Of a stretch of 61,996 bases of DNA, positions 838 through 61,884 are shown in pieces. The notes beneath the pieces were generated by a model that did no database searches, was not told the origin of the DNA, and saw only the letters and a list, made by a program, of their open reading frames with translations. A program made the translations under genes and the position numbers. This DNA comes from a virus. Each line of letters starts with the position of its first letter. The stretch's first letter is position 1. Location: the IMG/VR virus record IMGVR_UViG_3300043436_000818, positions 1-61,996 of that record. One strand, given 5' to 3'.

Positions 838-850
838 ATACCTATATTTG
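820..850 (+). promoter_or_regulatory. Bacteroidota-type promoter for the phage A replication block
   Basis: TTG at 820-822, a 20-nt spacer, then TATATTTG at 843-850, matching the -33/-7 consensus (TTG, TAnnTTTG). Transcription should begin a few bases downstream, right at the structured leader RNA. The -33 half lies inside the end of the preceding gene. Confidence 0.7.
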
Positions 851-954
851 AAGAGTTAACTGAGATGTCGCATATCTCGAAAGTTACAAGATTTTTGCCC
901 GATTGGGTTAGTCTGCGATGCGACCGCAACTAATTCAGTTGGGCGTTTTTTTTT
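851..954 (+). ncRNA. Structured leader RNA with 7-bp kissing loops (phage A copy)
   Basis: Hairpin 1: TAACT (857-861) pairs with AGTTA (882-886), and GAGAT (862-866) with ATCTC (874-878), with a GAA bulge (879-881) and loop GTCGCAT (867-873). Hairpin 2: TTAGT (908-912) pairs with ACTAA (929-933), and TGCG (914-917) with CGCA (925-928), with one bulged C and loop ATGCGAC (918-924). The two 7-nt loops are exact reverse complements. GCCC (897-900) and GGGC (941-944) close hairpin 2, followed by nine T (946-954) and the start codon at 956. The same architecture with different but still complementary sequences is at 59610-59707, so the pairing covaries. I know of no described family that fits; a control element for the downstream replication gene is inferred. 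Confidence 0.8.
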
Positions 955-955
955 A

Positions 956-1495
956 ATGAAAGAATCAATAATAATCTATCGCAGTTTTTATGAAGCGATT
1001 AAAGACTTGCCAAAAGAACAACAAGCAGACGCTTGGAATGCAATCTTTGAGTATGGTTTAAACCAAACCGAAGTACAATTAACTGGTATTGTTTCCACAG
1101 TATTTAAGTTAGTCAAACCTCAATTAGATGCCAATCTTAAACGCTATGAAAATGGCAATAAAGGAGGTAGACCAAAGAACCAAACAGAAACCAAACAAGA
1201 ACCTAACTATAACCAAACAATAACCAAAGTCGAACCTAATGTAAATGTTAATGTAAATGATAATGAAAAGGTTAATGTAAATAAGAAGTTTATTAAACCC
1301 ACACAAGACCAAATTAGAGAGTATATGTTAGAACAAAGAATGAACGATGAATCCGAACGCTTTTACAACTACTATGAGGCAGTAGGATGGAAAGTAGGAC
1401 GTAACCCAATGAAGAATTGGAAAGCAGCGGTAATTACTTGGAAGAAGAACCAACAACCTATACAAACCATTAACAACAATTATAGAGTATTATGA
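956..1495 (+). CDS. DUF6291-like replication/primosome protein
   Basis: 179 residues. The N-terminus (FYEAIKDLPKEQQADAWNAI, then KPQLDANLKRYENG and KGGRPKN) matches the DUF6291/DUF4373 type of phage replication proteins. A low-complexity Asn/Val/Lys linker follows. The C-terminus (FYNYYEAVGWKVG, MKNWKAAVITWKK) is the short tail common to phage DnaD-like initiators and helicase loaders. It directly follows the structured leader RNA; its start codon lies one base beyond the T9 tract. It overlaps the DnaB gene by 4 nt, so a helicase-loader or initiator role is likely. The counterpart after the phage B leader (59712) is a different protein with the same kind of tail. Confidence 0.7.
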   Translation: MKESIIIYRSFYEAIKDLPKEQQADAWNAIFEYGLNQTEVQLTGIVSTVFKLVKPQLDANLKRYENGNKGGRPKNQTETKQEPNYNQTITKVEPNVNVNVNDNEKVNVNKKFIKPTQDQIREYMLEQRMNDESERFYNYYEAVGWKVGRNPMKNWKAAVITWKKNQQPIQTINNNYRVL

Positions 1496-2721
1496 ATTTA
1501 GAACTACACATCGTTAGCAACATAATGTTCTACGAAAAGAACTATGTTTATCTACCCCGAATTAAGGGTAATTGGTTTACTAACCCACTACACCAACAAA
1601 TAATCCAAGCAATGCAATTTTTGTACTTGCAGAACCAACCATTCGGTTTATACGAGATTGTTAACCACATCGGACAAGAGAAAGCCTACGAGGTATCAAT
1701 GATTCTAAATTCTGTTATGGGTACGGGAGAAATTGAACCACATATTAAACAACTCCAAGCGGTATCACTTAAACGTCAATTAGTAGATAAGTTAGGAGGA
1801 TTAGACTTAACACGCGATTTAAAGGCTATTACAAGCGATTTAACGCAATATGTCGAAGAAGCGATGATAGTACACGCAAAAGAATCAATTGCGATGAATA
1901 AGGTAACTGCAAAGACGTTTGACGATATGGTGTCAGCAATCGAGAGAGGTGATTCAATTAATGGTAGACCAACGGGATGGATTCGGTTAGATAGGGTTAT
2001 AGGTGGTTGGAATAAGGGAGACGTTGTTATTATAGCGGGGAGACCAGGTTCGGGGAAGACTTCCATAGCGTTAACCTTTATTCTAAACGCTGCTAAACTT
2101 GGTTCAAAGTGTTTGTTTCTATCATTGGAAATGAGCAACGAGCAAATTGCCAAGCGTTATATGAGTTTGATTTCTTCGGTTACAAACGGAAAGATACGTT
2201 CGGGTAATCTTGACAAACGAGACATTGAAACATTAGCGGTTGCTATTGTAAACGATGACAATGTATTCCACATAGACGATGAGGCGATAGTTGATATTAA
2301 CACAATTAAATCTAAGGTTAAGATTCACAAAGCGAAGTTCGGATTGGATGTATTGGTTATCGACTATTTACAATTGATTAAGGGGAACAAGCAAAACAGA
2401 GAGCAAGAGATATCCGACATAAGCCGCAACCTAAAAGTGTTAGCCAAAGAATTAGATATCACCGTTATTGCATTGGCTCAGTTATCGAGGAAGTGCGAGG
2501 AACGCTCAGACAAACGTCCTATGCTATCCGACATTAGAGAGAGTGGAAGTATAGAACAAGATGCAGACGTTATCTTATTTCCATTCCGTCAAAACTACTA
2601 CGATAGGCAATTACTCGATATTGAGGATAGTGAATTGATAGTTGCAAAGAACAGACACGGAGAGGTAGGAATGATTGAGACTGAATTTATACCATCACGA
2701 ACATATTACAGAGAAAAATAA
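1492..2721 (+). CDS. dnaB: Replicative DNA helicase, DnaB family
   Basis: 409 residues, close to full length for DnaB. The N-terminal domain (1-100) is followed by a linker and a RecA-like domain. Walker A is GRPGSGKT (~183-190), SLEMS follows the next strand, Walker B is LVIDYLQL (~288-295), then LAQLSRKCE, and SDIRESGSIEQDAD with KNRHGEVG near the end. This hexameric 5'-3' helicase unwinds the fork for phage replication. It overlaps the upstream primosome-like gene by ATGA coupling. Only phage A encodes one, so phage B presumably recruits the host helicase. All catalytic motifs are intact. Confidence 0.95.
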   Translation: MNLELHIVSNIMFYEKNYVYLPRIKGNWFTNPLHQQIIQAMQFLYLQNQPFGLYEIVNHIGQEKAYEVSMILNSVMGTGEIEPHIKQLQAVSLKRQLVDKLGGLDLTRDLKAITSDLTQYVEEAMIVHAKESIAMNKVTAKTFDDMVSAIERGDSINGRPTGWIRLDRVIGGWNKGDVVIIAGRPGSGKTSIALTFILNAAKLGSKCLFLSLEMSNEQIAKRYMSLISSVTNGKIRSGNLDKRDIETLAVAIVNDDNVFHIDDEAIVDINTIKSKVKIHKAKFGLDVLVIDYLQLIKGNKQNREQEISDISRNLKVLAKELDITVIALAQLSRKCEERSDKRPMLSDIRESGSIEQDADVILFPFRQNYYDRQLLDIEDSELIVAKNRHGEVGMIETEFIPSRTYYREK

Positions 2722-7489: not shown

Positions 7490-8490
7490 ACCTACTACTA
7501 TTATGCGATGGAATGAACGGAGTAATCTATCATCGTATCGCAACACCTCACCTCCGTATGCAATTAATGGGATTGGCAAATGTAGACGTTTGCCAAAACC
7601 CTGCGGAGTTCTTAGACATCGATTACAAAGCATACGATTTAATTATATTCTCTCGGTGGTTAGGTGAGAAACACTATGATGTACTCAAGAAGATAGCACA
7701 GAGTGGCACGAAGTACGCGGTGGATGTGGACGATTATTGGGCTTTACCTCGTTACAATCCTGCATACCAAGCGTATCGGAAAGGAATCAAACAAGCCGTA
7801 AAGGATTCAATGCACTATGCAGACGCAGTAATTGCCACAACTCCACACCTACAATCCAAAGTATTCGAGTTTAACCGCAATTGTTACATAGTACCCAATT
7901 GCTTAGACTACGAACACGAACAATGGTCACAAGAGAAATGGAAGTCATATAACCTACGCATCGGATGGGTTGGAGGTGTAACACACTACGAGGATTTAAA
8001 GTTGTGTAACGAGGCTATAAATAGGCTACAATCGCATTATGACTTTGAGTTCTATATATGCGGTTATACCCCGAGCGAAGAATGGGACAAAATTGTCAAG
8101 TTATTCAACAACCCTAAGATAGTAGGCGGTGTGAACACCTTTGAATACGGACACGCTTATAAACACTTGGACTTTGTTATAGCACCCCTACTCAATGAAT
8201 CGTTCAACAACCACAAATCAGAGTTGAAGATATTAGAAGCGAGTGCATACCAATTGCCCATAGTGGTTAGTGATTGTTACCCTTACAAGTACTGCGAAAA
8301 CAACTTGGGTGTATTGTTTGCTGCAAACGACAAATGGGAAGATAGAATAGAAAAAATGATTCTAATGAGTGACGATGCAAGAATCGGAATGGGTCAACTA
8401 AACGGAGAGTATTCTCGTAAGCATTATAACTTAGAACATTGGTGTAGAGAGAGAGAGTTAATCTACAAGAAGATTATAAATGGAAATTGA
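7486..8490 (+). CDS. Glycosyltransferase, GT-B fold
   Basis: 334 residues from the ATG at 7486 that overlaps the previous stop. N-terminal domain: LLLCDGMNGVIYHRIATP, SRWLG, KYAVDVDDYWALP. C-terminal nucleotide-sugar domain: LRIGWVGGVTHYEDL, FYICGYTPSEEW, VIAPLLNESFNNHKSELKILEASAYQLPIVVSD, the GT4-type ExxxxxxP region. It is homologous to 34970 in phage B, at the same place before the terminase. Likely adds sugar to phage DNA, a virion protein or a host surface glycan; the substrate cannot be told from sequence. Confidence 0.82.
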   Translation: MNLLLLCDGMNGVIYHRIATPHLRMQLMGLANVDVCQNPAEFLDIDYKAYDLIIFSRWLGEKHYDVLKKIAQSGTKYAVDVDDYWALPRYNPAYQAYRKGIKQAVKDSMHYADAVIATTPHLQSKVFEFNRNCYIVPNCLDYEHEQWSQEKWKSYNLRIGWVGGVTHYEDLKLCNEAINRLQSHYDFEFYICGYTPSEEWDKIVKLFNNPKIVGGVNTFEYGHAYKHLDFVIAPLLNESFNNHKSELKILEASAYQLPIVVSDCYPYKYCENNLGVLFAANDKWEDRIEKMILMSDDARIGMGQLNGEYSRKHYNLEHWCRERELIYKKIINGN

Positions 8491-9667
8491 GTACATCAGA
8501 CCATATTTAACAACATACCAACGGGAGATATTAGATGCTCCCGAACGCTATACTATTACCGCAGCATCAACCAAGACGGGTAAAACTGCATCCCATATTA
8601 TTTGGCTATTTGAACAAGCACTCACCCTCAAGACAAATCAATCTGTTTGGTGGGTTGCTCCCGTTTACAAACAAGCCGAGATTGCCTACCGAAGAATGAA
8701 AGCCCAAGTATCACACCGCGATTTCTTCCAATCCAACGAATCCAAGTTAGTACACATATTACCCAATGGAGCGAGGATAGAATTTAAGTCAGCAGAAAAC
8801 CCCGACAACCTATATGGAGAGGATGTATATGCAGCGGTATTCGATGAAGCCTCACGAGCGAGAGAAGAGAGTTGGTTTGCGTTACGTTCAACCCTAACCG
8901 CTACACGAGGCAAGTGTAAACTAATTGGAAACGTCAAGGGGAAAAAGAATTGGTTTTACAAATTAGGTGAACGAGCGAAACAAGGAGAACGAGATTATAA
9001 GTTCTTTAAAATAACTGCATACGATGCAGCGAGAGAGGGGATATTGTCATTGGACGAAATAGAACAAGCAAAACGTGATTTACCAAAGGCGGTATTCGAT
9101 GAATTGTACTTGGCTGAACCTGCTGACGATAAATCTAACCCATTCGGATTGGACAACATTGAAAAGTGCATCAGACCCGTTCAGAATAGTCAAGTAGTAG
9201 CGTATGGAGTTGACCTTGCAAAGTACACGGATTGGACGGTTATAATTGGTTTAAACGCTAATAACGAGGTAGCCTATGTAGATAGATTCCAAAATGATTG
9301 GGCAGCAACTACCGATAAGATAGTTTCTATCGTTGGAAACATCCCTGCGGTTATGGATAGTACAGGCGTAGGAGACCCTATCGTTGAGCAGATTCAGCGT
9401 AGATGCCCAAGAGTTAAGGGGTTTAAATTTACCTCAATAAGTAAGCAACAGATAATGGAGAACCTCGTAGCCCATTGTCATCAACAAAAGATATTCTTTC
9501 CATTAGACCCTATCGGGTATGAGATGCAGAATATAGAGTTTGAATACACCCAATCGGGTATAAGATACGCAGCACCATCAGGATTGCATGATGACTGCGT
9601 TATGAGTTTGGCATTAGCCTTAGAATGTAAACATACAAATCGACAAGGAACATTTTATTTTGCATAA
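8480..9667 (+). CDS. terL: Terminase large subunit (ATPase-nuclease packaging motor)
   Basis: 395 residues. The P-loop is STKTGKTAS (~30-38), Walker B VYAAVFDEAS (~116-125). The RNase H-like nuclease has GVDLAKYTDWTV (~243), AVMDSTGVGD (~290) and GLHDDCVMSLALA near the C-terminus. These drive ATP-dependent DNA translocation into the prohead and cleave the concatemer. It resembles the Terminase_6 type and differs clearly from the phage B enzyme at 37332. It overlaps the glycosyltransferase by 11 nt. Confidence 0.93.
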   Translation: MEIEYIRPYLTTYQREILDAPERYTITAASTKTGKTASHIIWLFEQALTLKTNQSVWWVAPVYKQAEIAYRRMKAQVSHRDFFQSNESKLVHILPNGARIEFKSAENPDNLYGEDVYAAVFDEASRAREESWFALRSTLTATRGKCKLIGNVKGKKNWFYKLGERAKQGERDYKFFKITAYDAAREGILSLDEIEQAKRDLPKAVFDELYLAEPADDKSNPFGLDNIEKCIRPVQNSQVVAYGVDLAKYTDWTVIIGLNANNEVAYVDRFQNDWAATTDKIVSIVGNIPAVMDSTGVGDPIVEQIQRRCPRVKGFKFTSISKQQIMENLVAHCHQQKIFFPLDPIGYEMQNIEFEYTQSGIRYAAPSGLHDDCVMSLALALECKHTNRQGTFYFA

Positions 9668-21767: not shown

Positions 21768-21985
21768 TAGGATACATTTTAACAACCGAACAATATGAAG
21801 AAATTCAAGGCAAAGAATTTGCCCCATACGAGTATTTTAATTGTGTTCAAGATATCAATGACGTTTGGTTCAATTTTGTAACAGACCAACAATATCCTGA
21901 AATTGAAGCCTCCGAGTACGCTTGGTTATTAGATTTACCACAAGGCGAATATGTACCACCACCATCACCACCATTTCCATACTAA
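21764..21985 (+). CDS. Small fibre-associated protein ending PPFPY
   Basis: 73 residues, acidic and aromatic, ending YVPPPSPPFPY. The phage B protein 55443 occupies the same slot between the receptor-binding and holin genes and ends QPPFPYETH. Perhaps a chaperone or cap of the receptor-binding protein, as small genes after fibre genes often are (inference). It overlaps both neighbours by 1-4 nt. Confidence 0.55.
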   Translation: MIGYILTTEQYEEIQGKEFAPYEYFNCVQDINDVWFNFVTDQQYPEIEASEYAWLLDLPQGEYVPPPSPPFPY

Positions 21986-22176
21986 TGAAAAACATTGATA
22001 ACGACACCACGGCAACGATAGCAACCGCAGTTAGTGGGAGTGCTACAATTATACATTTCTCGCAACAATGGCAACCCGTAGCCGCATTCGTGTTGGCTAT
22101 TGTAGGCATAGTTTCGGGATTGTTTGCGATAATATATTGGCACAAAAAAATCAAGTCATTAGATGGCAAAGGTTAA
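21985..22176 (+). CDS. Putative holin
   Basis: 63 residues from the ATG at 21985: a soluble N-terminus (NIDNDTTATIATAV), one strongly hydrophobic helix (AAFVLAIVGIVSGLFAIIYW), and a basic end (HKKIKSLDGKG). This fits a small membrane-pore protein next to fibre genes. The phage B copy (55681) is near-identical in protein and DNA, although the rest of the two genomes is diverged. Confidence 0.72.
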   Translation: MKNIDNDTTATIATAVSGSATIIHFSQQWQPVAAFVLAIVGIVSGLFAIIYWHKKIKSLDGKG

Positions 22177-22282
22177 AGCATCAATCGTATTATTTCGCAA
22201 AAAGCCAAAGAGGAAATTAGGCAGACATACCAAACATCAAAACAAACACAAATCATGCAAACCAAATCGCGGACAAGGGTGA
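22163..22282 (+). CDS. 39-residue very basic conserved protein
   Basis: Short gene: MAKVKASIVLFRKKPKRK, then GRHTKHQNKHKSCKPNRGQG. About half the residues are Lys, Arg or His. It overlaps the holin gene by 14 nt and the next gene by 28 nt. Phage B encodes the same protein at 55859 with conserved spacing and mostly conservative changes, so it is under selection. It could bind nucleic acid or membrane; function unknown. Confidence 0.72.
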   Translation: MAKVKASIVLFRKKPKRKLGRHTKHQNKHKSCKPNRGQG

Positions 22283-22458
22283 AGTTTAAACCCTATTTTT
22301 CGCCAACACCTAAAAGAATACGCATATTTGGCGATTCATTAGCCGCTGCATCTATAATGGTTGCAGGGTTTAATATGTCCGAACCTTCCGTAATGATAGG
22401 TTGTGCAGTCGTTGGTGGATTAGGTAAATTCCTATCAAACTTTTTCACAATCGAATAA
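22255..22458 (+). CDS. Small membrane-associated protein of the holin cassette
   Basis: 67 residues: basic start (TKSRTRVKFKPYFSPTPKRI), then an apolar helix (GDSLAAASIMVAGF) and a second (MIGCAVVGGLGKFLSNFF). It could be a second holin or antiholin. Phage B has a near-identical copy at 55951. The genes overlap in the order holin, 39-residue protein, this gene, in both phages. Confidence 0.65.
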   Translation: MQTKSRTRVKFKPYFSPTPKRIRIFGDSLAAASIMVAGFNMSEPSVMIGCAVVGGLGKFLSNFFTIE

Positions 22459-28637: not shown

Positions 28638-28887
28638 TATAGTATTAGACTATCACTCCGTTCAGTATTACTTTCGTAAATCCGATGTAGAAGCTTATCT
28701 CGTTGGATTAGATGATTCATTAGTTAACCAATATTATAAATCTACCGCAGTACCTTTTGAGGATTGCATAGACTTTGAAAATTGGTTTGACTTTGAACAA
28801 TTTCACAAAGAGTATCACGATACTTTTGTTTGTCACCTTTATTTGGGGTGGATGTCAGGAAAATTAACACCATACAACTATGAATAA
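28609..28887 (+). CDS. Small hypothetical protein
   Basis: 92 residues, very acidic and aromatic (YFRKSDVEAYLVGLDDSLV, CIDFENWFDFEQFHKEYHD). No family recognised; an early-operon protein between the HTH regulator and the ERF recombinase. The acidic surface could mimic DNA, but there is no further support. Confidence 0.5.
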   Translation: MKWVAVLENDIVLDYHSVQYYFRKSDVEAYLVGLDDSLVNQYYKSTAVPFEDCIDFENWFDFEQFHKEYHDTFVCHLYLGWMSGKLTPYNYE

Positions 28888-29428
28888 ATCAGAATCAATC
28901 GCTAATCTTGCAGCAGCATTGTGCAAGTTCCAAGCCAACATCGGAAAGGTTAAAAAGGAAGCAACCAATCCGTTTTTTAAATCTAAGTATGCGTCACTTG
29001 CGAACATCTTAGACGTTATCCAAAAACCATTAGCAGATGCAGGGTTGTCGTTCTGTCAATTACCCGATGCAGATTGTTTAACAACCATTCTTATGCACGA
29101 TAGCGGAGAGTGGATTGAAGCAACCTATTGTATGCCAGTAGTCAAAACCAATGACCCACAAGCAATGGGTTCGGCTATTACCTACGCTCGTAGATATGCA
29201 CTTGGTTCTATTCTTGGATTGAACATTGACGAAGACGATGACGGAGAGAAAGCGATGCAGCGTAATACAAAACAAGATGTACCACAAGAGAAATTGTTTA
29301 TCAACCCTGCAATGATGCAATGGGAGAAAGCGGTTGAACACATCAAAGGTGGTGGAGCTATTGAGGATATCTTGAAGAAGTATCAACTCAAGCCCGAACA
29401 CTTGACTATTTTAAAGGCGGTTAAATGA
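28880..29428 (+). CDS. erf: ERF-family single-strand annealing recombinase
   Basis: 182 residues. NLAAALCKFQANIGKVKKEATNPFFKSKYASLANILDVI, then LADAGLSFCQLP and QAMGSAITYARRYALGSILGLNIDEDDDGEKA match the ERF domain, including the conserved GSAxTYARRYALxxxLGI-type helix and an acidic tail. Binds ssDNA and anneals complementary strands. It is coupled to the YqaJ exonuclease downstream, the usual recombination pair. Confidence 0.92.
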   Translation: MNKSESIANLAAALCKFQANIGKVKKEATNPFFKSKYASLANILDVIQKPLADAGLSFCQLPDADCLTTILMHDSGEWIEATYCMPVVKTNDPQAMGSAITYARRYALGSILGLNIDEDDDGEKAMQRNTKQDVPQEKLFINPAMMQWEKAVEHIKGGGAIEDILKKYQLKPEHLTILKAVK

Positions 29429-29445: not shown

Positions 29446-30075
29446 ATGATATCTACAAACTTAACAGAAGAAGCGTGGTTGCAATTACGGCAGTCACGCT
29501 TTACAGGCAGCGAAATCTATAAACTAATGGGTAAACCTCGTAACAAATCAGAGTATCTAAGCGAAACGGCTAAATCTTACGTTTACGAAAAAGCAGGTGT
29601 TATCCTTACAGGTATTCAACCCGAAATCTTCGGACGTGCTTTAGAATGGGGTAAGAACTACGAGCGTCAAGCCTTTGATACTTTCGCAGCACAAGACTTT
29701 AAAGAGTACACGTACTATGGTGGTGAAACATTTACATTCATAGAGTTCAATGAGATTAGCGGATTTTCTCCCGATGGTTTAGGTGAAGATTCTATTATCG
29801 AGATTAAGTGTCCGTTCAATTCAGCTGTTCACCTACGGAATGCCACAATTACCGATGCAGAAAGTTTAAAGGATAACCACCCCGAGTACTACTGGCAAAT
29901 GCAATTTGGGATGCTATGTACTCAGACCGAATACGGAATCTTTGTGTCGTATGACCCTCGTATGCCTGAATCTCACAAACTATTTACATCCGTAATTGAG
30001 TTGGAAGATATCCGAGAGGAAGTAGAAGAGAAACTATACCACGCAGGTTTGATGTTAAATAGTATCATTCACTAA
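29446..30075 (+). CDS. YqaJ-family exonuclease
   Basis: 209 residues. AWLQLRQSRFTGSEIYKLMG (RxxxiTgS motif), AGVILTGIQPEIFGRALEWGKNYERQAF, FSPDGLGEDSIIEIKCPF (catalytic D and E-x-K) and YYWQMQFGMLCT are the lambda-exonuclease fold motifs. Degrades one strand of dsDNA ends to make substrate for the ERF annealase. Phage B lacks this pair and has a VRR-NUC nuclease. Confidence 0.92.
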   Translation: MISTNLTEEAWLQLRQSRFTGSEIYKLMGKPRNKSEYLSETAKSYVYEKAGVILTGIQPEIFGRALEWGKNYERQAFDTFAAQDFKEYTYYGGETFTFIEFNEISGFSPDGLGEDSIIEIKCPFNSAVHLRNATITDAESLKDNHPEYYWQMQFGMLCTQTEYGIFVSYDPRMPESHKLFTSVIELEDIREEVEEKLYHAGLMLNSIIH

Positions 30076-30587: not shown

Positions 30588-30800
30588 ATGTTACCTATAG
30601 AATTTTTAATCTTGTACCCAATCAGCCTACCCGTTGCATTTCTAATGCACAAGGCTTGGAAGAAGTTAACGACTAAAATTGAACTACCAGAGGCACAACC
30701 TTATCAGTTCGAGAAAGACCAACCAATTGCCAATTTTAATCAAGTCACTAAGCATTGGAAGAAAGAGGCTAATAGAATGTATCGAGGAGGTCAACTATGA
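30588..30800 (+). CDS. Small membrane protein of the small-gene array
   Basis: 70 residues: LPIEFLILYPISLPVAFLMH is one membrane helix; the rest is charged (PYQFEKDQPIANFNQVTKHW). The phage B homologue 57386 begins with the same MLPIEFLILYP and shares FEKDxPxxNxNQV and RMYRG. Conserved in both phages at the same end of the genome; unknown role. Confidence 0.6.
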   Translation: MLPIEFLILYPISLPVAFLMHKAWKKLTTKIELPEAQPYQFEKDQPIANFNQVTKHWKKEANRMYRGGQL

Positions 30801-31054
30801 GTATAATCTACAAACACCAATCCATCGTTAACAATGTTGAAGTTTATCGCGTTTGGAAAGATGGAGACTTAGTCGGTGAATTTAAAGAGGAGCATAAAGC
30901 CGACCACTTGTATTATTACCTATTATCTACACGAACAGACCATTTTAAACAAGCAATTATGGAAGCCTACACACAAGGACGTATCTCAATGTTGAAACAG
31001 AATGGTAGATTAGCAGACGAATATTATACTGAAACATATGAAAATAATAGTTAA
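30797..31054 (+). CDS. Small hypothetical protein
   Basis: 85 residues preceded by a clear GAGGAGG Shine-Dalgarno. VYRVWKDGDLVGEFKEEHKADHLYYYL, then QAIMEAYTQGRISMLKQNG. No family recognised. Part of the array of exchangeable small genes. Confidence 0.5.
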   Translation: MSIIYKHQSIVNNVEVYRVWKDGDLVGEFKEEHKADHLYYYLLSTRTDHFKQAIMEAYTQGRISMLKQNGRLADEYYTETYENNS

Positions 31055-31202
31055 ACACAAAAACACGGAAGTTGTCATCGAGGATGGCGAAACTAAAACC
31101 GACACTAATTCCAATCTAATCTACTACAATCAGAAGTATTTATTAGAATTGTTGGACAAGATTTTTAAAGAGATTAAAGCATTGGACAATGAGCAACAAT
31201 AA
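31038..31202 (+). CDS. 54-residue small-array protein (copy 1)
   Basis: Too short for ordinary ORF cutoffs. MKIIVKHKNTEVVIEDGETK, then NLIYYNQKYLLELLDKIFKEI and ALDNEQQ. An almost identical protein, differing at the second to fourth residues, is encoded at 61720-61884. The DNA from 31050 to 31206 matches 61732-61888 with one difference I can see. Overlaps the next gene by 14 nt. Confidence 0.65.
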   Translation: MKIIVKHKNTEVVIEDGETKTDTNSNLIYYNQKYLLELLDKIFKEIKALDNEQQ

Positions 31203-31434
31203 ACAACAAACGGCAGTAGAGTGGTTTGCCCAAGAAAGTTGGAAACTACGTGTTGAATTAGAGGGTGGCAAAATATCTTTGGGTGAATATGCCAATAAAT
31301 ATTACCAACTAAAGGAACAAGCCAAAGAAATGGAGAAGGAGCAGATAATAAATGCGGTTGACGGTTTCCCATTAGCCAATAGGAATTTAGATGGTAGTGA
31401 GTATTATGAAAAAACATACGGAGGTGACAAATGA
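31189..31434 (+). CDS. Small array protein, MSNNKQQ family
   Basis: 81 residues: MSNNKQQTAVEWFAQESW, EQAKEMEKEQIINAVDGFP, ending KTYGGDK. It shares its N-terminal MSNxKQQTAVEW and central QAKEMEKEQ with 31890. The last codons, GGAGGTGAC, double as the ribosome-binding site of the next gene. Function unknown. Confidence 0.6.
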   Translation: MSNNKQQTAVEWFAQESWKLRVELEGGKISLGEYANKYYQLKEQAKEMEKEQIINAVDGFPLANRNLDGSEYYEKTYGGDK

Positions 31435-31640
31435 GCAACGAAACACAACAAACAATAGTTCAGTGGATTAGACACCAAATAAAACAACAAGGTGTTAGTC
31501 ATTATTTTACAACAAGGGAAATACTTGATAGAGCTGAACAAATGGAAAATGAGCAACGTAAAAAAATTTGGAACGAAGCATTAAAATCAGTTGAAAAAAA
31601 ATTAGAATTATTAAAAGAAATCTACGGAGGTAACAAATGA
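31431..31640 (+). CDS. Small array protein, MSNETQQ family
   Basis: 69 residues, helical: QTIVQWIRHQIKQQGVSHYF, DRAEQMENEQRKKIWNEALKS, ending EIYGGNK. Its C-terminal codons again encode a GGAGGT ribosome site for the next ATG. A paralogue of its neighbours by layout; function unknown. Confidence 0.58.
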   Translation: MSNETQQTIVQWIRHQIKQQGVSHYFTTREILDRAEQMENEQRKKIWNEALKSVEKKLELLKEIYGGNK

Positions 31641-31792
31641 GCAACAATAAACAAAGTATGAAACTATACACTAAAGAAGACTTTTTAAAAGCCGCTGAAT
31701 TTTGCGAAGTGTCAATGATAGATGCGAAATATATAATTGAACGCATTGATGAAGTAAGCGACCCCATCGAACTACCAAGTGATGAGGAGATA
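31636..31792. repeat. 157-bp internal copy of the contig start; likely A/B junction
   Basis: Bases 31636-31792 equal 1-157 exactly, and the first 127 equal 61870-61996. Divergence begins at 158/31793 (C versus G). The upstream base also differs (A at 31635, C at 61869). This is the only place where the two phage genomes touch, so it is the point where assembly could have crossed over. Confidence 0.9.
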
Positions 31793-31900
31793 GGAAAGGA
31801 ATTTAAGCATAGTAGTGAAAATTGGGAAGTTAGACAAGCACTTGAAGTAGGTGCAAAATGGATGCGTGACAAAATACATGGAGGTAACAATGAGCAATAA
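31637..31900 (+). CDS. Small array protein across the A/B junction
   Basis: 87 residues. The first ~52 residues are the same as at 2-157 and 61871. It then continues GKEFKHSSENWEVRQALEVGAKWMRD and ends HGGNNEQ, again over a GGAGGT ribosome site. If the window is two circles, this reading combines the shared 5' part with the phage B 3' part. Function unknown. Confidence 0.6.
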   Translation: MSNNKQSMKLYTKEDFLKAAEFCEVSMIDAKYIIERIDEVSDPIELPSDEEIGKEFKHSSENWEVRQALEVGAKWMRDKIHGGNNEQ

Positions 31901-32135
31901 ACAACAAACGGCAGTAGAGTGGTTGATTGACCAATTAATTGAACACCGAATTATCATTGTTGATAAAACAACATACCAAGTCAAATACAAACATGAAATC
32001 CTTTTAGAACAAGCCAAAGAAATGGAGAAAGAACAAATGGAAAATGCACAATGTGGCTATATTGGTGGTTGGAATGAAGGTGAATTTGATGAATGGTACG
32101 AACAAACATACGGAGGTAACAATGACAATCCTTAA
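31890..32135 (+). CDS. Small array protein, MSNKQQ family (second copy)
   Basis: 81 residues from the ATG at 31890: MSNKQQTAVEWLIDQLIEHR, LLEQAKEMEKEQMENAQCG, YEQTYGGNN. The DNA for the first dozen codons closely matches 31189. This repeated 5' end may let genes swap by recombination. Function unknown. Confidence 0.6.
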   Translation: MSNKQQTAVEWLIDQLIEHRIIIVDKTTYQVKYKHEILLEQAKEMEKEQMENAQCGYIGGWNEGEFDEWYEQTYGGNNDNP

Positions 32136-32247
32136 ATTTATGTTGGACTACCTCTTAATTTTTGTACTGGGTGGGTTTGTTGTATTCGTATTCCTGTACT
32201 TATTAATTGATTTAATTAGAAGCTTGGTTAGATATTACAAAAAATGA
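32122..32247 (+). CDS. 41-residue single-helix membrane protein
   Basis: From the ATG at 32122 with a GGAGGT site 5 nt upstream. LLIFVLGGFVVFVFLYLLIDLI is one membrane helix, followed by a basic tail (RSLVRYYKK). Too short for usual cutoffs. Function unknown; a small inner-membrane protein. Confidence 0.55.
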   Translation: MTILKFMLDYLLIFVLGGFVVFVFLYLLIDLIRSLVRYYKK

Positions 32248-32585
32248 GGCATTTAGAATCTAAATTACAGATTCATTGCGTAAAATGGTTTAGATACGAA
32301 CACCCCGATTTGGTTTTGTTTTCAATTCCGAATGGGGGTTATCGTACAGCCATTACTGCGAAGATTATGAAAGCCGAAGGGCAATTGGCGGGAGTGGCGG
32401 ATATCTTCCTAATGTACCCCAATAACAAATATCATGGATTATGGATTGAGTTAAAGACCGACAAAGGCAGACAGAACGAAAATCAAAAGTTATTCCAAAC
32501 CAAGGCAGAGCAATTTGGGTACAAGTATTGTATCGTGAAATCTTTTGAGGAATTTATTACAACCATAACCGAATATTTAAAATAA
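32244..32585 (+). CDS. VRR-NUC domain nuclease
   Basis: 113 residues, the usual stand-alone size. LESKLQIHCVKWFRYEHPD (catalytic E and Q), FSIPNGGYR, QLAGVADIFLM (D) and LWIELKTDKGRQNENQ (E-x-K) are the VRR-NUC/PD-(D/E)XK motifs. It is probably a structure-specific nuclease acting on recombination or replication intermediates, replacing the ERF-YqaJ pair of phage A. Confidence 0.92.
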   Translation: MRHLESKLQIHCVKWFRYEHPDLVLFSIPNGGYRTAITAKIMKAEGQLAGVADIFLMYPNNKYHGLWIELKTDKGRQNENQKLFQTKAEQFGYKYCIVKSFEEFITTITEYLK

Positions 32586-32611: not shown

Positions 32612-33202
32612 GTGCTAACATTGGAACACATAGCCCACATGGATGTCAAATGGAGGAAGATGGCTAATTACCTTGGTGCAAGGTGGGGGGATATTGACGA
32701 TTGTGTTCAAAATATGTATTTAAAATTAGCGGAAATACAGGAAACAGAGGGTTCATTGCAACGATTGGAAACACCATCAGGTGGTGTGAATACCTTTTAC
32801 ATTTTTAAAATTCTACAATCGGCAGTTATTAACGTATATCGTGCAGAGAACAAGGTATATGACCATGAGGCACAATTTAACCCAATAGAATCTCCCGAAG
32901 AATCCGAATACAGGTATCAACAATTGATGGCACGGATTAAGGAGGTAATTGACACGATGCATGAATATGACCAAATGATTTTGGAATTGTATTTTGTCTA
33001 TGGGCATAGTTTACGGCAAATTGAAAAGCGTACAGGGATAACAGTTACATCGGTTTATAACACCTTGAAAAACGCCAAACAACACATTAAAAACCATTCA
33101 AAAGAATTATATGAGCAATACATACAACAGAAAGCAGACGAAGAAACCATCGCAAGGATTGGGGGATTCGGTGGAGAAGTTCACGGAAGCGACTGGGATT
33201 AA
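32612..33202 (+). CDS. Sigma-70-like protein
   Basis: Up to 196 residues from a GTG (an in-frame ATG lies at 32639). Region-2-like helices: MANYLGARWGDIDDCVQNMYLKLAE. Region-4 HTH: YDQMILELYFVYGHSLRQIEKRTGITVTSVYNTLKNAK. Likely a phage sigma factor or related HTH switching transcription; the counterpart in phage A is 4552. The end overlaps the next gene by 92 nt. Confidence 0.72.
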   Translation: MLTLEHIAHMDVKWRKMANYLGARWGDIDDCVQNMYLKLAEIQETEGSLQRLETPSGGVNTFYIFKILQSAVINVYRAENKVYDHEAQFNPIESPEESEYRYQQLMARIKEVIDTMHEYDQMILELYFVYGHSLRQIEKRTGITVTSVYNTLKNAKQHIKNHSKELYEQYIQQKADEETIARIGGFGGEVHGSDWD

Positions 33203-33501: not shown

Positions 33502-33681
33502 ATGGAGAAACCAATTATAACAAAATCGTATTGGTGTGATAGATGGTATTTTGCGGTATGGTATAAGGGGTTAAGGCGTGGATTGTATGACACCAAACAA
33601 GAGGCACAATTAAAAGTAAAAGAATATGAAACAGGAATTAGTACACATAACCAAGTTGGTAAACAACAAGGGGCAAATTGA
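33502..33681 (+). CDS. 59-residue hypothetical protein
   Basis: Small ORF: MEKPIITKSYWCDRWYFAVW, then KGLRRGLYDTKQEAQLKVKEYE. Resembles single-domain phage proteins with a W-rich sheet. It starts 1 nt past the previous stop and overlaps the methyltransferase gene by 56 nt. Moderate confidence only, because of the long overlap. Confidence 0.45.
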   Translation: MEKPIITKSYWCDRWYFAVWYKGLRRGLYDTKQEAQLKVKEYETGISTHNQVGKQQGAN

Positions 33682-34801
33682 GGGTTTACCCAAAAACCCA
33701 AGGTTTTGTAAGGATCACAAATTCGTGCAATTAAAACAATCCATCAAGGAAGACCCCGAGATGTTGGAATTACGTGAGGTTATTGCCGTGGATTACAATG
33801 GGGAATTGGTTGTTATTGCTGGGAATATGCGATTGAATGCGTGTTTGGAATTGGGCATTAAGGAAGTACCATGTAAGATATTGCCCCAAGATACGCCTAT
33901 TGATAAATTGAAAGCCATTACTATTAAAGACAATGTTGGATTTGGTGAGCATGATTGGGACGCATTGGCAAACGATTGGGATGTGGAAGAGTTAGCCCAT
34001 TGGGGATTGGATTTGCCTTTGGATTTTGAGGATGATGCATTGGAGGTAGATGCCGTTGAGGATGACTATGAAATGCCCGAGCAGATTGAAACGGATATTG
34101 TGGTGGGTGATTTGTTTGAGATAGGTGAACACCGATTGTTATGTGGTGATTCCACGGATAGTGATGCGGTGGCGAAATTGATGGATGGTGAAAAGGCAGA
34201 CATGGTTTTTACTGATCCTCCGTATGGAATTTCACATAGTGGTAAAGGGATTGATGGTTCAACAAAAGGCAATGATTTTGGGCAGATATTAGGGGATAAT
34301 GATGTTACTATTGCAATAGATTCATTTAATCTATGTATTTCAATGTTTCCAGAATCAACAATGATTTTTTGGGGGGCAAATTATTATTCATCATGTATCC
34401 CAAATGGATTTGGTTGGTTGATTTGGGATAAACAAAGAGAAGGTAATACATTTAGTGGTGCAGAAATTGCGTTTGTAAATAAAGGAGTTAAAGTTGATGT
34501 ATTTCGTCATCAATGGCATGGGATGATAAAAGCAAGTGAGCATGGAGAAAAAAGAGTACATCCAACACAAAAGCCAGTAGCATTAGTAGAATGGTGTTTT
34601 AATAATTATCAGGCAGGTAATTTAATTTTGGATTTATTTCTTGATAGCGGTTCAACAATGGTAGCATCCCACCAACTTAAACGCAAGTGTTATGGCATGG
34701 AACTAGACCCTAAATATTGCCAAGTGATTATTGACCGAATGCGTAAACTTGACCCGACAATAAAAATAACAAAGAACGGACAACCTTATGAAAGCATATA
34801 G
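33626..34801 (+). CDS. ParB-like domain fused to N6-adenine/N4-cytosine DNA methyltransferase
   Basis: 391 residues. Residues ~1-110 form a ParB/Srx-like domain (LPKNPRFCKDHKFVQLKQSI, VVIAGNMRLNACLELGIKEVPCK). The methyltransferase half has DMVFTDPPYGIS (DPPY ~197-200), MIFWGANYY, HPTQKP and ILDLFLDSGSTM. The last should read FxGxG; here the first Gly is Asp, so SAM binding may be altered. Base composition drops sharply in G+C from about 34220 to 34640, suggesting replacement of the catalytic core. It probably modifies phage DNA against restriction. Confidence 0.85.
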   Translation: MKQELVHITKLVNNKGQIEGLPKNPRFCKDHKFVQLKQSIKEDPEMLELREVIAVDYNGELVVIAGNMRLNACLELGIKEVPCKILPQDTPIDKLKAITIKDNVGFGEHDWDALANDWDVEELAHWGLDLPLDFEDDALEVDAVEDDYEMPEQIETDIVVGDLFEIGEHRLLCGDSTDSDAVAKLMDGEKADMVFTDPPYGISHSGKGIDGSTKGNDFGQILGDNDVTIAIDSFNLCISMFPESTMIFWGANYYSSCIPNGFGWLIWDKQREGNTFSGAEIAFVNKGVKVDVFRHQWHGMIKASEHGEKRVHPTQKPVALVEWCFNNYQAGNLILDLFLDSGSTMVASHQLKRKCYGMELDPKYCQVIIDRMRKLDPTIKITKNGQPYESI

Positions 34802-34973
34802 ACACCCAAGCAAACAATTACCATCCGATGGGTTGCACGTATTAATCGTGGATATATACGACAATAAATTTATTGCCTATTACGATGGAGAGGATTGGTT
34901 TGATGTTCATACCGAAGAACATATCCAACACGTTGAATGGTGGATGTATATTCCAATAACACCAAGCGAATGA
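34788..34973 (+). CDS. DUF551-like small protein
   Basis: 61 residues: RHPSKQLPSDGLHVLIVD, YYDGEDWFDVH, WWMYIPITPSE. Same length, order and ending as the phage A protein at 7304, again overlapping the glycosyltransferase start by ATGA. Function unknown; conserved linkage suggests it acts with the glycosyltransferase. Confidence 0.7.
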   Translation: MKAYRHPSKQLPSDGLHVLIVDIYDNKFIAYYDGEDWFDVHTEEHIQHVEWWMYIPITPSE

Positions 34974-35968
34974 AAGTGTGTGTAATAATGGATGGCATGA
35001 GTGCCGTTACCTACCATCGATTAGCAATGCCGTGGGCAATGATTCGTTTCCATCAACAATTGGATGTAACATTTGCCATCACCAAGCCCGAAATAGAGGC
35101 GGTAAATGTTCAGGATTACGATGCTATTGTAATATCTCGATACCTACGATTCAATACCAAACTTATAACCGATTGTAAAAAGTACGGTGTCAAATTCATT
35201 GTTGATAATGATGACCATTGGATTATTCCAAAACATAACCCTGCCTATTCCTCATACAAGAAAAAGGCAAAGGATGGTGTAATATCATGCATAAAGGCAG
35301 CCGATGCGTTAATTGTTACCACCCCACAATTGGCAGAGAAAACAAAAGAAATCAACCCAAAGGTTTACATTGCCCCCAACGCATTGGATTTGGAAGAACC
35401 ACAATGGAACGCCAAGGCAGCACACCCCTTTACAATTGGATATGTTACAGGCTCATCCCACCTATATGATGTGAAGCTATTAGAGAATCAGTTATCCCAT
35501 GTACTGAAACGCAATCAATGTAATTTTCTATTGGCTGGTTATGCACCAATGGAACGAATATCACAGATGATGGAATACTACATCACGGGCGAAAAGGAAC
35601 GCCCTACGTGGTTCTATATCGGTGAGGGTGTCAATGTGTTAAACTATGGTAAATACTATGCATTTATGGATGCCGTTATTGCACCATTGGAAAAAACATC
35701 GTTCAATAAGTATAAATCGGAATTGAAGATAATTGAAGCTGCGGCATATAGATTACCCATCTTTGTTAGTGCCGTTGAACCATACACCAACCATAGAAAA
35801 AACAAAGGCGTGATTTTTGTAGAGAATAACGATTGGAGTATATTGGATAAATATTTAGCCGATAAAGCGTTATTAAAAGAGTTGGGTGAAGCCAATTACC
35901 AGTATTGTAAAGAACACCACAATTTATACCAAGTAAATGAACAACGAATTAAAGCGGTTACAGATTGA
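34970..35968 (+). CDS. Glycosyltransferase, GT-B fold
   Basis: 332 residues from the ATG at 34970. Starts VCVIMDGMSAVTYHRLAMPW like the phage A enzyme (LLLCDGMNGVIYHRIATP). Shares VDNDDHWIIPKHNPAYSSYKK and, in the C-terminal sugar-nucleotide domain, VIAPLEKTSFNKYKSELKIIEAAAYRLPIFVS. It overlaps the next glycosyltransferase by 32 nt. Substrate not known. Confidence 0.82.
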   Translation: MKVCVIMDGMSAVTYHRLAMPWAMIRFHQQLDVTFAITKPEIEAVNVQDYDAIVISRYLRFNTKLITDCKKYGVKFIVDNDDHWIIPKHNPAYSSYKKKAKDGVISCIKAADALIVTTPQLAEKTKEINPKVYIAPNALDLEEPQWNAKAAHPFTIGYVTGSSHLYDVKLLENQLSHVLKRNQCNFLLAGYAPMERISQMMEYYITGEKERPTWFYIGEGVNVLNYGKYYAFMDAVIAPLEKTSFNKYKSELKIIEAAAYRLPIFVSAVEPYTNHRKNKGVIFVENNDWSILDKYLADKALLKELGEANYQYCKEHHNLYQVNEQRIKAVTD

Positions 35969-36752
35969 GAAGGCAACCATTGCCGATGATGAACAACCCA
36001 TAAGATTAAAGACAGTATTACAATCGGGACACCTTGGGGATTTAATATATTCCCTATCCGCAGTTCAGGCAATCGGTGAACCTGTGCATTTTTACGTTGG
36101 CTTTAAATTATCCAATGGTGTTCCAAACCACCCAAGTGGTAGGTATTGCATGAATAGTGATATGTATGCCTACATCAAACCATTGTTAAAGGCACAACCC
36201 TACATTTCGCAAGTATCAATACATGATTCAAAAATTGTAGATTATAATTTTGACCAATTCAGGAACATCGGTTTAAATTTAGCGTGTGGTGATTTGAGGC
36301 GTTCACATTTCCAAGTGTACCCCGAACTTGCAACCGATTTAACACAACCTGCATTATTTGTTGAACAGACATTCCCACAATTTAATGATTCCATTGTAAT
36401 TAATTTTAGTAGTCGGTATAGAAATAGGAACATGAATTATTCGTTCCTCCAAAATTACAATGTGATATTCGTGGGGTTAGATCAGGAATATGATGAATTT
36501 GTTTCCCGTAACCATTGGCAACCAAAACGAATATTGATTGATGATGCACTACAAATGGCAATGCTGGTTAAATCCTGTAAACTATTTATCGGAAATCAAT
36601 CCTCTACCTATGCAATCGCAGAGCAATTGAAAGTACCAAGATTATTGGAATCATACCAACCATGCCCTAATGTTATTCCGATGGGTGCAAATGGATATGA
36701 TTACACAAATCAAAGTACATTAGAATATTTTGTTAAAAAATTAATCAATTAA
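35937..36752 (+). CDS. GT9-like (heptosyltransferase-type) glycosyltransferase
   Basis: 271 residues. SGHLGDLIYSLSAVQAIGEPVHF is the N-terminal GDxxxxxP-like motif of GT9 enzymes, and LFIGNQSSTYAIAEQLKVPRLLE is the C-terminal nucleotide-sugar site. Absent from phage A. With its neighbour it could build a two-step sugar modification on DNA, virion or host surface. It starts inside the upstream gene. Confidence 0.75.
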   Translation: MNNELKRLQIEKATIADDEQPIRLKTVLQSGHLGDLIYSLSAVQAIGEPVHFYVGFKLSNGVPNHPSGRYCMNSDMYAYIKPLLKAQPYISQVSIHDSKIVDYNFDQFRNIGLNLACGDLRRSHFQVYPELATDLTQPALFVEQTFPQFNDSIVINFSSRYRNRNMNYSFLQNYNVIFVGLDQEYDEFVSRNHWQPKRILIDDALQMAMLVKSCKLFIGNQSSTYAIAEQLKVPRLLESYQPCPNVIPMGANGYDYTNQSTLEYFVKKLIN

Positions 36753-37015: not shown

Positions 37016-37360
37016 ATGGCAAACGAACAAAACTTAATTCCACCTGCACAACTTGGTGAGGTACGAAACCCAAACGGCAGACCCAAAGGGAGTAAGAACC
37101 GCAGTACCATTGCCCGTAAGTGGTTAGAGGTTATGCAGGATGCCAAGAATCCCATCACGGGAGAATTGGAAAAACTATCCCAAGAGGATTTGATTACCCT
37201 TGCAATGATTCATAAAGCCCGAAAGGGTGATGTCAATGCGTATAAGCAATTAATGGATTCAGGCTTTGGAATGCCTACCCAACAGATTGATGTTAATACG
37301 GAAACACCAATATTTAATGGAATAAATTTGGATGTTGCAAAAGACAACGGCACAAAATAA
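37016..37360 (+). CDS. Putative small terminase subunit (DUF5681-like)
   Basis: 114 residues. RNPNGRPKGSKNRSTIARKWLEV near the start is the DUF5681 motif, also seen in the phage A protein at 6336. A helical middle (LSQEDLITLAMIHKARKGDVNAYKQLMDSGFG) follows. It overlaps TerL by 29 nt, which supports the assignment to packaging. Confidence 0.75.
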   Translation: MANEQNLIPPAQLGEVRNPNGRPKGSKNRSTIARKWLEVMQDAKNPITGELEKLSQEDLITLAMIHKARKGDVNAYKQLMDSGFGMPTQQIDVNTETPIFNGINLDVAKDNGTK

Positions 37361-38489
37361 GATAGCGGCATTACGGAAACGAGTGCGAATAGTTAGGGGT
37401 GGAACATCCAGTTCAAAGACCTTTTCAATTATTCCTATGCTTATTACCTATGCGGTTCAGAAACCAAGCACGGAGATAAGTATTGTAGCGGAATCCATCC
37501 CCCATTTGCGTAGGGGTGCTATCCGTGATTTCCTTAAAATTATGCAGATGGTAGGCATGTACGATGATAACAAATGGAATAAATCATCCTTGACCTATAC
37601 ATTTAACAACGATTCATTCATTGAGTTTTTTTCAGCCGATCAACCCGACAAATTGAGAGGTGCAAGGCGTGATGTGTTATTCGTTAACGAGTGCAACAAC
37701 ATAGAATGGGAATCATATTACCAAATGGCAATCCGTACACGGAAGTTTATTTATTTGGATTACAACCCAGTTACTGAATTTTGGGTGGATACGGAATTGA
37801 TTGGTGATGCAGATTCCGAAATGATTGTGTTAACCTACAAGGATAATGAGGCATTGGATGAATCATTGGTTCGGGAAATTGAGAAAGCCCGTGATAAAGC
37901 CGAAACAAGTGAGTATTGGCGTAACTGGTGGGCAGTTTACGGATTAGGGCAAATCGGTAATTTAGAGGGTGTTATATTTAGCAACTACAAAACGATTGAT
38001 ACCATCCCAAAGGAGGCACGATTAATTGGGTGTGGTTTGGACTTTGGTTATTCAGTTGACCCCACGGCAATTGTAGAGATATACCAATACAACAACCAAC
38101 GTATTGTTAATGAGCTTTGTTACAGAACAGGGATGTTAAACACCGATATTGCCAAGGTATTACCCAAAGGAGTTCCGATATATGCAGATAGTGCCGAACC
38201 TAAATCCATTGAAGAGATACGGAGGTTTGGGATACAGATTAAACCCGTTACCAAGGGCAAGGATTCAATCAATTATGGTATTCAAGTAATGCAATCCCAA
38301 GAGTACCTAATTACCAAAGATTCCACCAACTTAATAAAAGAATTGCGTGGGTATTGTTGGGACAAAGGCAAGGATGGTAAACAATTACCCATTCCCATTG
38401 GTGTTGATCATGCCATTGATGCATTTAGGTATCACGAAATGGAAACATTAGGACTTAAAAAGAATTACGGGCAATACGATGTTCGCTAA
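37332..38489 (+). CDS. terL: Terminase large subunit (Terminase_3 type)
   Basis: 385 residues. The P-loop is GGTSSSKT (~23-30), Walker B DVLFVNE (~114-120). The nuclease motifs are GCGLDFGYSVDPTA (~234), IYADSAEP (~283) and DHAIDAFRY (~366), the Terminase_3/RNase H set. A different family from the phage A enzyme at 8480, so the two phages package with unrelated motors. ATP-driven packaging and cleavage of the concatemer. Confidence 0.94.
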   Translation: MLQKTTAQNKIAALRKRVRIVRGGTSSSKTFSIIPMLITYAVQKPSTEISIVAESIPHLRRGAIRDFLKIMQMVGMYDDNKWNKSSLTYTFNNDSFIEFFSADQPDKLRGARRDVLFVNECNNIEWESYYQMAIRTRKFIYLDYNPVTEFWVDTELIGDADSEMIVLTYKDNEALDESLVREIEKARDKAETSEYWRNWWAVYGLGQIGNLEGVIFSNYKTIDTIPKEARLIGCGLDFGYSVDPTAIVEIYQYNNQRIVNELCYRTGMLNTDIAKVLPKGVPIYADSAEPKSIEEIRRFGIQIKPVTKGKDSINYGIQVMQSQEYLITKDSTNLIKELRGYCWDKGKDGKQLPIPIGVDHAIDAFRYHEMETLGLKKNYGQYDVR

Positions 38490-57385: not shown

Positions 57386-57607
57386 ATGTTGCCAATAGAA
57401 TTTTTAATACTATATCCTATGAGCCTCCCAGTTGCTTTTTTATTGAGCAAGTTATGGGCGAAGATTAGCCGCAAGAGATATGTAGATACGCCCGAAGCTA
57501 CACCCTACGAGTTTGAAAAAGACAAGCCCGTAAAGAATTACAACCAAGTGATGAACCACATCCATTGTGAAACCAAAAGAATGTATAGGGGAAAACTATT
57601 ATCATGA
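57386..57607 (+). CDS. Small membrane protein of the small-gene array
   Basis: 73 residues from the ATG at 57386: LPIEFLILYPMSLPVAFLLSKL is the membrane helix, then PYEFEKDKPVKNYNQVMNH and RMYRGK. Homologue of 30588 in phage A. Overlaps 57604 by 4 nt. Confidence 0.6.
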   Translation: MLPIEFLILYPMSLPVAFLLSKLWAKISRKRYVDTPEATPYEFEKDKPVKNYNQVMNHIHCETKRMYRGKLLS

Positions 57608-57855
57608 AACTATACACAGAGGATCAAGTTGTAAATGCTTTACAAAAAGTATTTTTAGAATCAATAACATTTGAAGATGTTAACGAGGTTGTTAGAAATT
57701 TAACACCCATTGAACTACCAAGTGAGGAGGAGATACGAGAAGAGAGATTATTACAATTTCCTGATTCTGAATATGCTAACAGGGCAAATGATAGACTTGC
57801 CTTTTATTGTGGCGCAAAATTCGTAATAAACAAAATACAAGGAGGTAACAAATGA
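57604..57855 (+). CDS. Small array protein, REERLLQF family
   Basis: 83 residues. The second half (IREERLLQFPDSEYANRAND) is almost identical to the end of the gene at 2-283, also at DNA level; the first half is unrelated. The C-terminus IQGGNK overlaps a GGAGGT ribosome site. Evidence of gene-part exchange. Function unknown. Confidence 0.6.
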   Translation: MKLYTEDQVVNALQKVFLESITFEDVNEVVRNLTPIELPSEEEIREERLLQFPDSEYANRANDRLAFYCGAKFVINKIQGGNK

Positions 57856-61483: not shown

Positions 61484-61723
61484 ATGACTGCAATAAACAC
61501 ATTAATTGATTGGGTTCAAGAAATACAATCATGTAGCCCCGAATCATCTTGTTTCATCGATGCACAGGAAATTATTGATCACGCCAACCGATATGCAATG
61601 GATGATGAGATGCAGGTAATTAAATACCTTGGTATTTTAACCGACATCATAAATGCCCATCCTGATATTACACGGGAGGAAATATTGTATGAAATCAATC
61701 GAATTAAGGAGATTTTATTATGA
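61484..61723 (+). CDS. Small hypothetical protein of the array
   Basis: 79 residues from the ATG at 61484 behind GGGAGGT. INTLIDWVQEIQSCSPESSC, EIIDHANRYAMDDEMQVIKY. Helical; shares the general layout of the small-array genes (short helical protein, own Shine-Dalgarno). Overlaps the next gene by 4 nt. Confidence 0.52.
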   Translation: MTAINTLIDWVQEIQSCSPESSCFIDAQEIIDHANRYAMDDEMQVIKYLGILTDIINAHPDITREEILYEINRIKEILL

Positions 61724-61884
61724 GAATTGTTGTTAAACACAAAAACACGGAAGTTGTCATCGAGGATGGCGAAACTAAAACCGACACTAATTCCAATCTA
61801 ATCTACTACAATCAAAAGTATTTATTAGAATTGTTGGACAAGATTTTTAAAGAGATTAAAGCATTGGACAATGAGCAACAATAA
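61720..61884 (+). CDS. 54-residue small-array protein (copy 2)
   Basis: MRIVVKHKNTEVVIEDGETK, then NLIYYNQKYLLELLDKIFKEI. Almost identical to 31038-31202, from which it differs at the second and fourth to fifth residues; the DNA from 61732 to 61888 matches 31050-31206. Overlaps the next gene by 14 nt. Unknown role. Confidence 0.65.
   Translation: MRIVVKHKNTEVVIEDGETKTDTNSNLIYYNQKYLLELLDKIFKEIKALDNEQQ

Follow-up and report, generated by a model that had tools for sequence, protein, structure and literature searches.

We propose, as the probable reading of these sequences, that the gene borders of a hypervariable array in two ∼31-kb phages and in many environmental phages carry a portable linker for accessory genes, serving both translation initiation and recombination. 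Both phages lie in the window, by which we mean the whole 61,996-nucleotide stretch analysed (IMG/VR record IMGVR_UViG_3300043436_000818). With fast turnover of accessory genes, it is an open question how a newcomer lands in an operon and is expressed at once; the linker is a likely answer, in that each inserted gene would receive its ribosome site, its start codon and a leader from it, and the linker would double as an exchange site. It is the combination that is new, coding and codon-frozen linkers in phages of a group that ignores Shine-Dalgarno (SD) sequences; start-associated sequences (SAS), SD-assisted coupling and annealing mosaicism were already known.

At these borders, GGAGGT forms both the closing codons of one small gene and an SD sequence 4–5 nt 5′ of the next ATG (the array genes, the second family-2 gene of phage B, the SD sites and the flanking nuclease, annealing-protein and exonuclease genes named below are on the + strand). 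The end of G3 (31189–31434, 81 aa) reads TAC GGA GGT GAC AAA TGA, with GGAGGT at 31420–31425 within the codons for ..YGGDK, followed by the ATG of G4 (31431–31640, 69 aa). Similarly, G4 ends in ..YGGNK (GGAGGT at 31626–31631) before the ATG at 31637 of G5 (phage B version, 31637–31900, 87 aa); G5 ends in ..HGGNN (31880–31885), 4 nt before the ATG of G6 (31890–32135, 81 aa); and G6 ends in ..YGGNN (32112–32117), 4 nt before the ATG of G7 (32122–32247, 41 aa), a predicted membrane peptide. A preliminary description of this DNA had stated that these tails double as the SD of the next gene, which is exact in the DNA, its coordinates being within 1 nt. A further SD border, absent from that description, is AGGAGGT (30785–30791, its GGAGGT at 30786; −12.8 kcal/mol) in the 3′ end of A3 (30588–30800), a small gene that ends in ..MYRGGQL and is the last one upstream of the array; the ATG of G1 (30797–31054, 85 aa) lies 5 nt on. 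Another site, which the description did list, is AAGGAGGT (57839–57846, with GGAGGT at 57841), in a second family-2 gene of phage B (57604–57855, ending in NKIQGGNK), 5 nt before the ATG at 57852.

All array borders in the window overlap, and they do so in two phases. The stop and start share ATGA, a 4-nt overlap, at G3/G4 and G4/G5, while at G5/G6 and G6/G7 the upstream gene runs further, through AAT GAG CAA TAA or AAT GAC AAT CCT TAA, to give overlaps of 11–14 nt. At the five SD borders within the interval, the predicted energy of pairing to the 16S tail ranges from −10.7 to −13.8 kcal/mol, strongest at the end of G3; it is −12.6 kcal/mol at 57852, compared to a median of −1.4 for the other genes of the window. 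These energies assume a generic, Bacteroidota-like 16S tail.

The 62-kb window is two ∼31-kb phages falsely joined, and the joint is an exact 127-nt repeat at the start of G5 (31636–31762), with identical copies at 1–127 and 61870–61996; 127 nt is a typical k-mer length of assemblers. The window has two large terminases (8480–9667 and 37332–38489). An independent contig, IMGVR_UViG_3300043466_000380 (31,732 bp), carries window positions 31–1500 at one end and 1–127 at the other, and therefore phage A (1–31635) closes as a circle of 31,635 bp. Phage B (31636–61869) closes at 30,234 bp through contig L087, which runs from the window end through the repeat into the G5 of phage B. A-type contigs have only A core DNA and B-type contigs only B core DNA, and homologues in the two cores are mostly 21–50% identical. 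The array noted at 30797–32247 therefore merges two arrays, with G1–G4 and G6–G7 in different genomes: its borders are real, but the interval spans the assembly junction. The junction itself creates no border motif, and each SD border belongs to one phage or the other. The array of phage A is A3-G1-G2-G3-G4-G5, in which G5 is window 2–283 and continues from G4 in the closed circle; that of phage B is G2′ (61720–61884), which joins the repeat and G5 once the genome is closed, followed by G5-G6-G7 and a VRR-NUC nuclease gene (VRR, 32244–32585).

Despite their diverged cores, the two phages have in common G2 (31038–31202, 54 aa; 97% nucleotide identity to G2′) and the start of G5 (157 identical nt). 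The phage B homologue of A3 (57386–57607) is 61% identical in amino acids. Elsewhere, a 490-nt segment with two small genes (21967–22455 in phage A, 55667–56151 in phage B) is 89% identical, and 95–97% in amino acids; it appears to be another recently exchanged block.

If the linkers are borders of exchange, gene content between them should differ among relatives, and indeed it does. Relatives with 90–99% identical flanks are missing G3–G4, G3–G5, G6 or G5–G6. After the G2 anchor, phage A has G3-G4-G5, L142 has only G5, and L139 and L140 have none of the three; after G2′, phage B has G5-G6, L087 has only G5, and L084, L085 and L086 have neither. G7 is the fixed 3′ neighbour of the variable part in phage B, and VRR is its fixed downstream flank. 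When units are removed in silico at repeats (a 19-nt start repeat, GGAGGTAACAATGA or AATGA), the result aligns in a single block to L142, L140, L087 and L084. The plug-in cassette layout with shuffled units, which had been suggested from the window alone, is thus supported by gain and loss at shared borders and by the same tail and start DNA in unrelated protein families; content in related phages is not fixed. Judged from these comparisons, the linkers demonstrably mark the exact borders of gain and loss.

The selected element at these borders is the nucleotides, and the peptide is not the cause. Gly-Gly is encoded by GGA GGT in 139 of 208 cases (67%) within the last seven codons of small genes, but in 122 of 1258 (10%) in gene interiors (odds ratio 18.8). 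When IMG/VR was scanned for YGGNK-stop in whatever codons, 114 of 132 cases had GGA GGT, 105 of the 114 with an overlapping follower. Moreover, the SD is read in the upstream gene as GGA GG. at 148 of 191 borders and in the other two frames at 43 (29 and 14), where it yields tails such as LKEVNND, MYKGRADK and QEMREEI. Selection for the C-terminal peptide YGGNK or GGGEQ, for instance as a protein tag or contact, with the SD as a by-product, would account for the many proteins with similar tail peptides; it is contradicted by the synonymous codons fixed to GGA GGT and by the tails in other frames, and members lacking the SD end differently (FKSE, ETYK). We regard it as highly improbable.

The linker spans ∼45–60 nt across the border and consists of the tail (..TAC GGA GGT ..), the SD, the AATGA stop/start and a leader, ATGACAAACAATAAACAACAAACGGCAGTG or ATGAGCAACAATAAACAA. 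Its consensus across the junction, ..tacaacgaaacctacGGAGGaGGTgagcaATGACAAACAATAAACAACAAACGGCAGTGGAGTG.., holds between positions of about −22 and +20 and fades into the gene bodies; 75 IMG/VR stretches contain an exact 30-nt core of it. Within the conserved blocks, codon choice is fixed on forms that are rare elsewhere in the same genes: Thr is ACG in 87% versus 5%, Glu is GAG in 87% versus 11% and Val is GTG in 54% versus 3%. In the hinge block of family 1, Ala is GCC in 93% versus 9%, and in the tail, Thr is ACC in 62% versus 4% and Tyr is TAC in 90–93% versus 32%. Rare codons are likewise frozen in family-2 blocks.

The preliminary description had each unit begin with ATGAGCAAC/AATAAACAA-like DNA, which is correct for G3–G6 and for the G5 of phage A but not for G1, G2 and G7. 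A lipoprotein starts with MKKLLIATLLIGM (or near it) in L116, L294 and L367 and with MTNNKQQTAVKKLLLATLLIGM in L408 and L434, and family-2 MKLYTEEQLLNTA is found as MTNNKQQTAMKLYTEEQLLNTA in L252. Since the same lipoprotein and the same family-2 protein occur both in a form that has the leader and in one that lacks it, the head can act as an in-frame extension ahead of a native start codon. G5 in the window, which begins with the leader MSNNKQS ahead of family 2’s own start MKLYT, is built like the lipoprotein leader cases.

To place these borders among other starts, we surveyed 2657 unique starts, from gene calls in the window and in about 215 related viral loci (small genes defined as <130 aa). 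The gene caller was home-made; in some loci it placed the start of G5 at the internal MKLYT, and it shortened VRR and SIG, from which we expect little effect on the counts. GGAGG precedes 172 of 586 overlapping starts between two small genes (29.4%), compared to 19 of 538 other overlapping starts (9/192, 6/165 and 4/181 by class) and, among non-overlapping starts, 18 of 470 with gaps of 0–30 nt and 16 of 993 with larger gaps (0.6–5.5%). In loci fetched by unrelated anchor genes, and thus not chosen for family 1, the counts are 70 of 275 versus 27 of 1172. Pairing of −8 kcal/mol or stronger is found at 34.1% of small-small overlaps, compared to 4.8% for a mock region, and at 5.2% of all remaining genes, compared to 4.3% for the mock. 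Core-like starts are A-rich, in agreement with the earlier statement that most other genes here have A-rich starts. SDs are thus a feature of small overlapping genes only, and the remaining genes are as expected for phages of SD-indifferent Bacteroidota.

The 191 SD-coupled borders involve 38 upstream and 67 downstream protein clusters, and 137 of them are 4-nt overlaps. The spacing of the SD peaks at 6 nt, in unrelated families as well (54/88). An overlapping follower is present in 67 of 70 cases with an SD tail and for 32 of 45 family-1 members without an SD; overlap therefore does not require the SD. Matches to GGAGGTAACAAATGA in L354, L369 and L378 were set aside as ordinary SDs of Firmicutes-like phages. 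Support is weak for ‘frame insulation’, in which the leader would hold a stop in each of the two other frames: this is so for 57% of SD-coupled starts, compared to 37% among the other ATGA overlaps and 21% among starts after a gap.

The hosts are probably Bacteroidota, because one terminase, that of phage B, is 52% identical to those of Flavobacterium psychrophilum phages, and because relatives of family 1 without SDs are found in a Sediminibacterium MAG; the phage A terminase is only remotely related to anything cultured. In that MAG, tandem family-1 genes (L227:5744–6378) ending in ..YYKDTFKNK are separated by short gaps and lack SDs, which makes them an array that does without the linker. 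When 299 genomes of the MAG’s order were searched for family 1, 2 gave matches. Bacteroidetes are the one group that uses SDs neither at new starts nor at overlaps, with SDs at <10% of overlapping pairs (Huber et al., PMC6728339), and most Flavobacteriales have a single gene with a strong SD, rpsU (McNutt et al., PMC9976891).

Shuffling extends inside genes. Family 1, to which G3, G4 and G6 belong, is marked by the head TAVEW, the hinge AKEMEKE and the tail YYxxTYGG. Among 104 distinct family-1 genes, 146 pairs share one half only (82 the N-half and 64 the C-half) and 30 share both, counting ≥85% as shared and <60% as not shared; these counts describe the sample, which was fetched with a family-1 query, and not the whole population. 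A single C-half is joined to 10 different N-halves, and a single N-half to 13 different C-halves. The crossover is the AKEMEKE hinge, a third conserved DNA block. In family 2 (..KWMRDKI.GG), the G5 of phage A is a mosaic: its first 157 nt are identical to the G5 of phage B, and nt 128–256 are 97.7% identical to 57706–57834. It combines parts of two phage B genes of this family.

The array products are small helical or membrane peptides, most likely with accessory roles in host takeover or counter-defence. An AlphaFold model of G6 has three helices (pLDDT 75), and its comparison to the PDB gave no match. G1–G6 match no family beyond chance in Pfam or PHROGs, searches of INPHARED phages with G6 and with another family-1 member gave no relative, and tRNA and Rfam scans of the window were empty, with no Rfam family matched.

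The linker, as we envisage it, would do two jobs. A ribosome ending one gene would re-start on the next through the linker whatever the sequence of the inserted gene, as the SD, the overlap and the A-rich leader would together provide a working start for any insert. The same DNA would be a short homology for the ERF single-strand annealing protein (28880–29428) and YqaJ-type exonuclease (29446–30075), whose genes adjoin the array of phage A on its upstream side, phage A being the one in which this pair was identified. Acting at linkers, the two proteins could add, swap or delete genes with frames intact, and the hinge block would permit the exchange of family-1 protein halves. On diverged DNA, an Erf/Exo pair has been shown to match lambda Red in recombination (PMC3945230). 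Ribosomes of Bacteroidia normally hide the anti-SD (PMC9976891), and therefore a restart that depends on the SD might not function in them.

That sequestration also speaks for recombination being the only job, in which case tail and head would be short homologies that spread by gene mobility, GGAGGT would have no special translation role and A-rich signals would start the genes. The freezing of DNA beyond the SD fits this account as well, as does the hinge, a third block without a translation role. We consider it unlikely, since GGAGG recurs at the same 6-nt spacing, in three frames, in families with no other shared sequence, and since an overlapping follower is more frequent with an SD tail than without (67/70 versus 32/45). 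An ordinary phage operon, with an SD-using host and coupled genes with normal ribosome sites, is a reading that we find distinctly unlikely: ATGA overlaps with SDs are common in other bacteria (PMC6728339) and the SD-type GGAGGTAACAAATGA occurs in Firmicutes-like prophages too, but the other genes of the same phages have no SD excess over the mock region, Bacteroidetes have SDs at few overlapping pairs (PMC6728339) and the phage B terminase is nearest to those of Flavobacterium phages.

The window itself was misjoined at an exact 127-nt repeat, and long repeats can yield chimeras, so that arrays and mosaics might all come from misjoined metagenome contigs. This is very improbable, as the states of gain and loss recur across independent metagenomes (L139 and L140; L084, L085 and L086), the borders share only 5–19 nt, and the halves of mosaics differ by point mutations.

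A linker for both translation and recombination resembles several known systems and differs from each. The SAS of cluster K mycobacteriophages (PMC3203893) is also a short repeat with an SD core before the starts of non-structural genes of different families, and its 13-bp consensus GGGATAGGAGCCC has no match in the window with up to 2 mismatches allowed. Unlike SAS, the linker sits inside the upstream coding sequence, includes the next start and first codons, and marks cassette borders, in a host group that normally does without SDs. Termination-reinitiation coupling (PMC6728339) likewise has the ATGA overlap and, near the close of the upstream coding sequence, an SD at functional spacing, but in Bacteroidetes the SD is present in <10% of pairs, whereas here it is concentrated in a mobile array. 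Rad52-like (Red/Erf/Sak) mosaicism (PMC3945230) shares with phage A the ERF and exonuclease and exchanges at short or diverged homologies at gene borders; here, the homologies are standardised, codon-frozen and common to unrelated genes, and a third lies inside a gene. Engineered bicistronic designs place the SD of the second gene within the first coding sequence, with overlapping stop and start, and make expression less dependent on the inserted gene (PMC5995908, PMC10367133); the phage linkers are natural, form chains over several genes and are tied to the exchange of genes. Integron cassettes are also small exchangeable ORFs arrayed between repeated elements, but the repeats here are coding, and the window has no tyrosine recombinase (PF00589) as an integron integrase. 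Nor does it have a reverse transcriptase (RVT_1) of a diversity-generating retroelement.

Control of rpsU in Bacteroidia by ribosomes lacking bS21 (PMC9976891) is another case of strong SDs in an SD-avoiding group, although the SDs here pair less strongly (−10.7 to −13.8 kcal/mol, against −14 to −21) and occur at many genes. With the generic 16S tail, only the site before 31431 (−13.8) exceeds the bS21 threshold of −13 kcal/mol, the others being −10.7 to −12.8. The arrays might be read by a special ribosome state, such as new 30S subunits lacking bS21 and with the anti-SD free, by which the accessory genes would all be translated together at one stage of infection and core genes would be SD-independent. 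We hold this as a doubtful extension; the window has no bS21 gene. If it were true, the linker would be both an address label for a ribosome type and the exchange site of a combinatorial repertoire of small proteins. Against the general disregard of SD sites in Bacteroidota, the arrays stand out as a marked exception, and they offer a handle on the conditions under which the anti-SD becomes accessible in ribosomes of this group. Gene finding for small phage proteins may profit from the linker as well, and it may serve as an expression part for Bacteroidota.

Phage B has several further features near its array. A protein with Sigma-70 region 4 is encoded just 3′ of the array (32612–33202), and the gap between VRR-NUC and this gene is another site of variation, where relatives have differing inserted genes (L087 and L084, for example, have methylase-like ones). 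Beyond it lie a fusion of ParB-like and N6/N4 DNA methylase domains (33626–34801) and two neighbouring glycosyltransferase-like genes (34937–36752), the first of which has a homologue in phage A (7558–8490, 36% aa).
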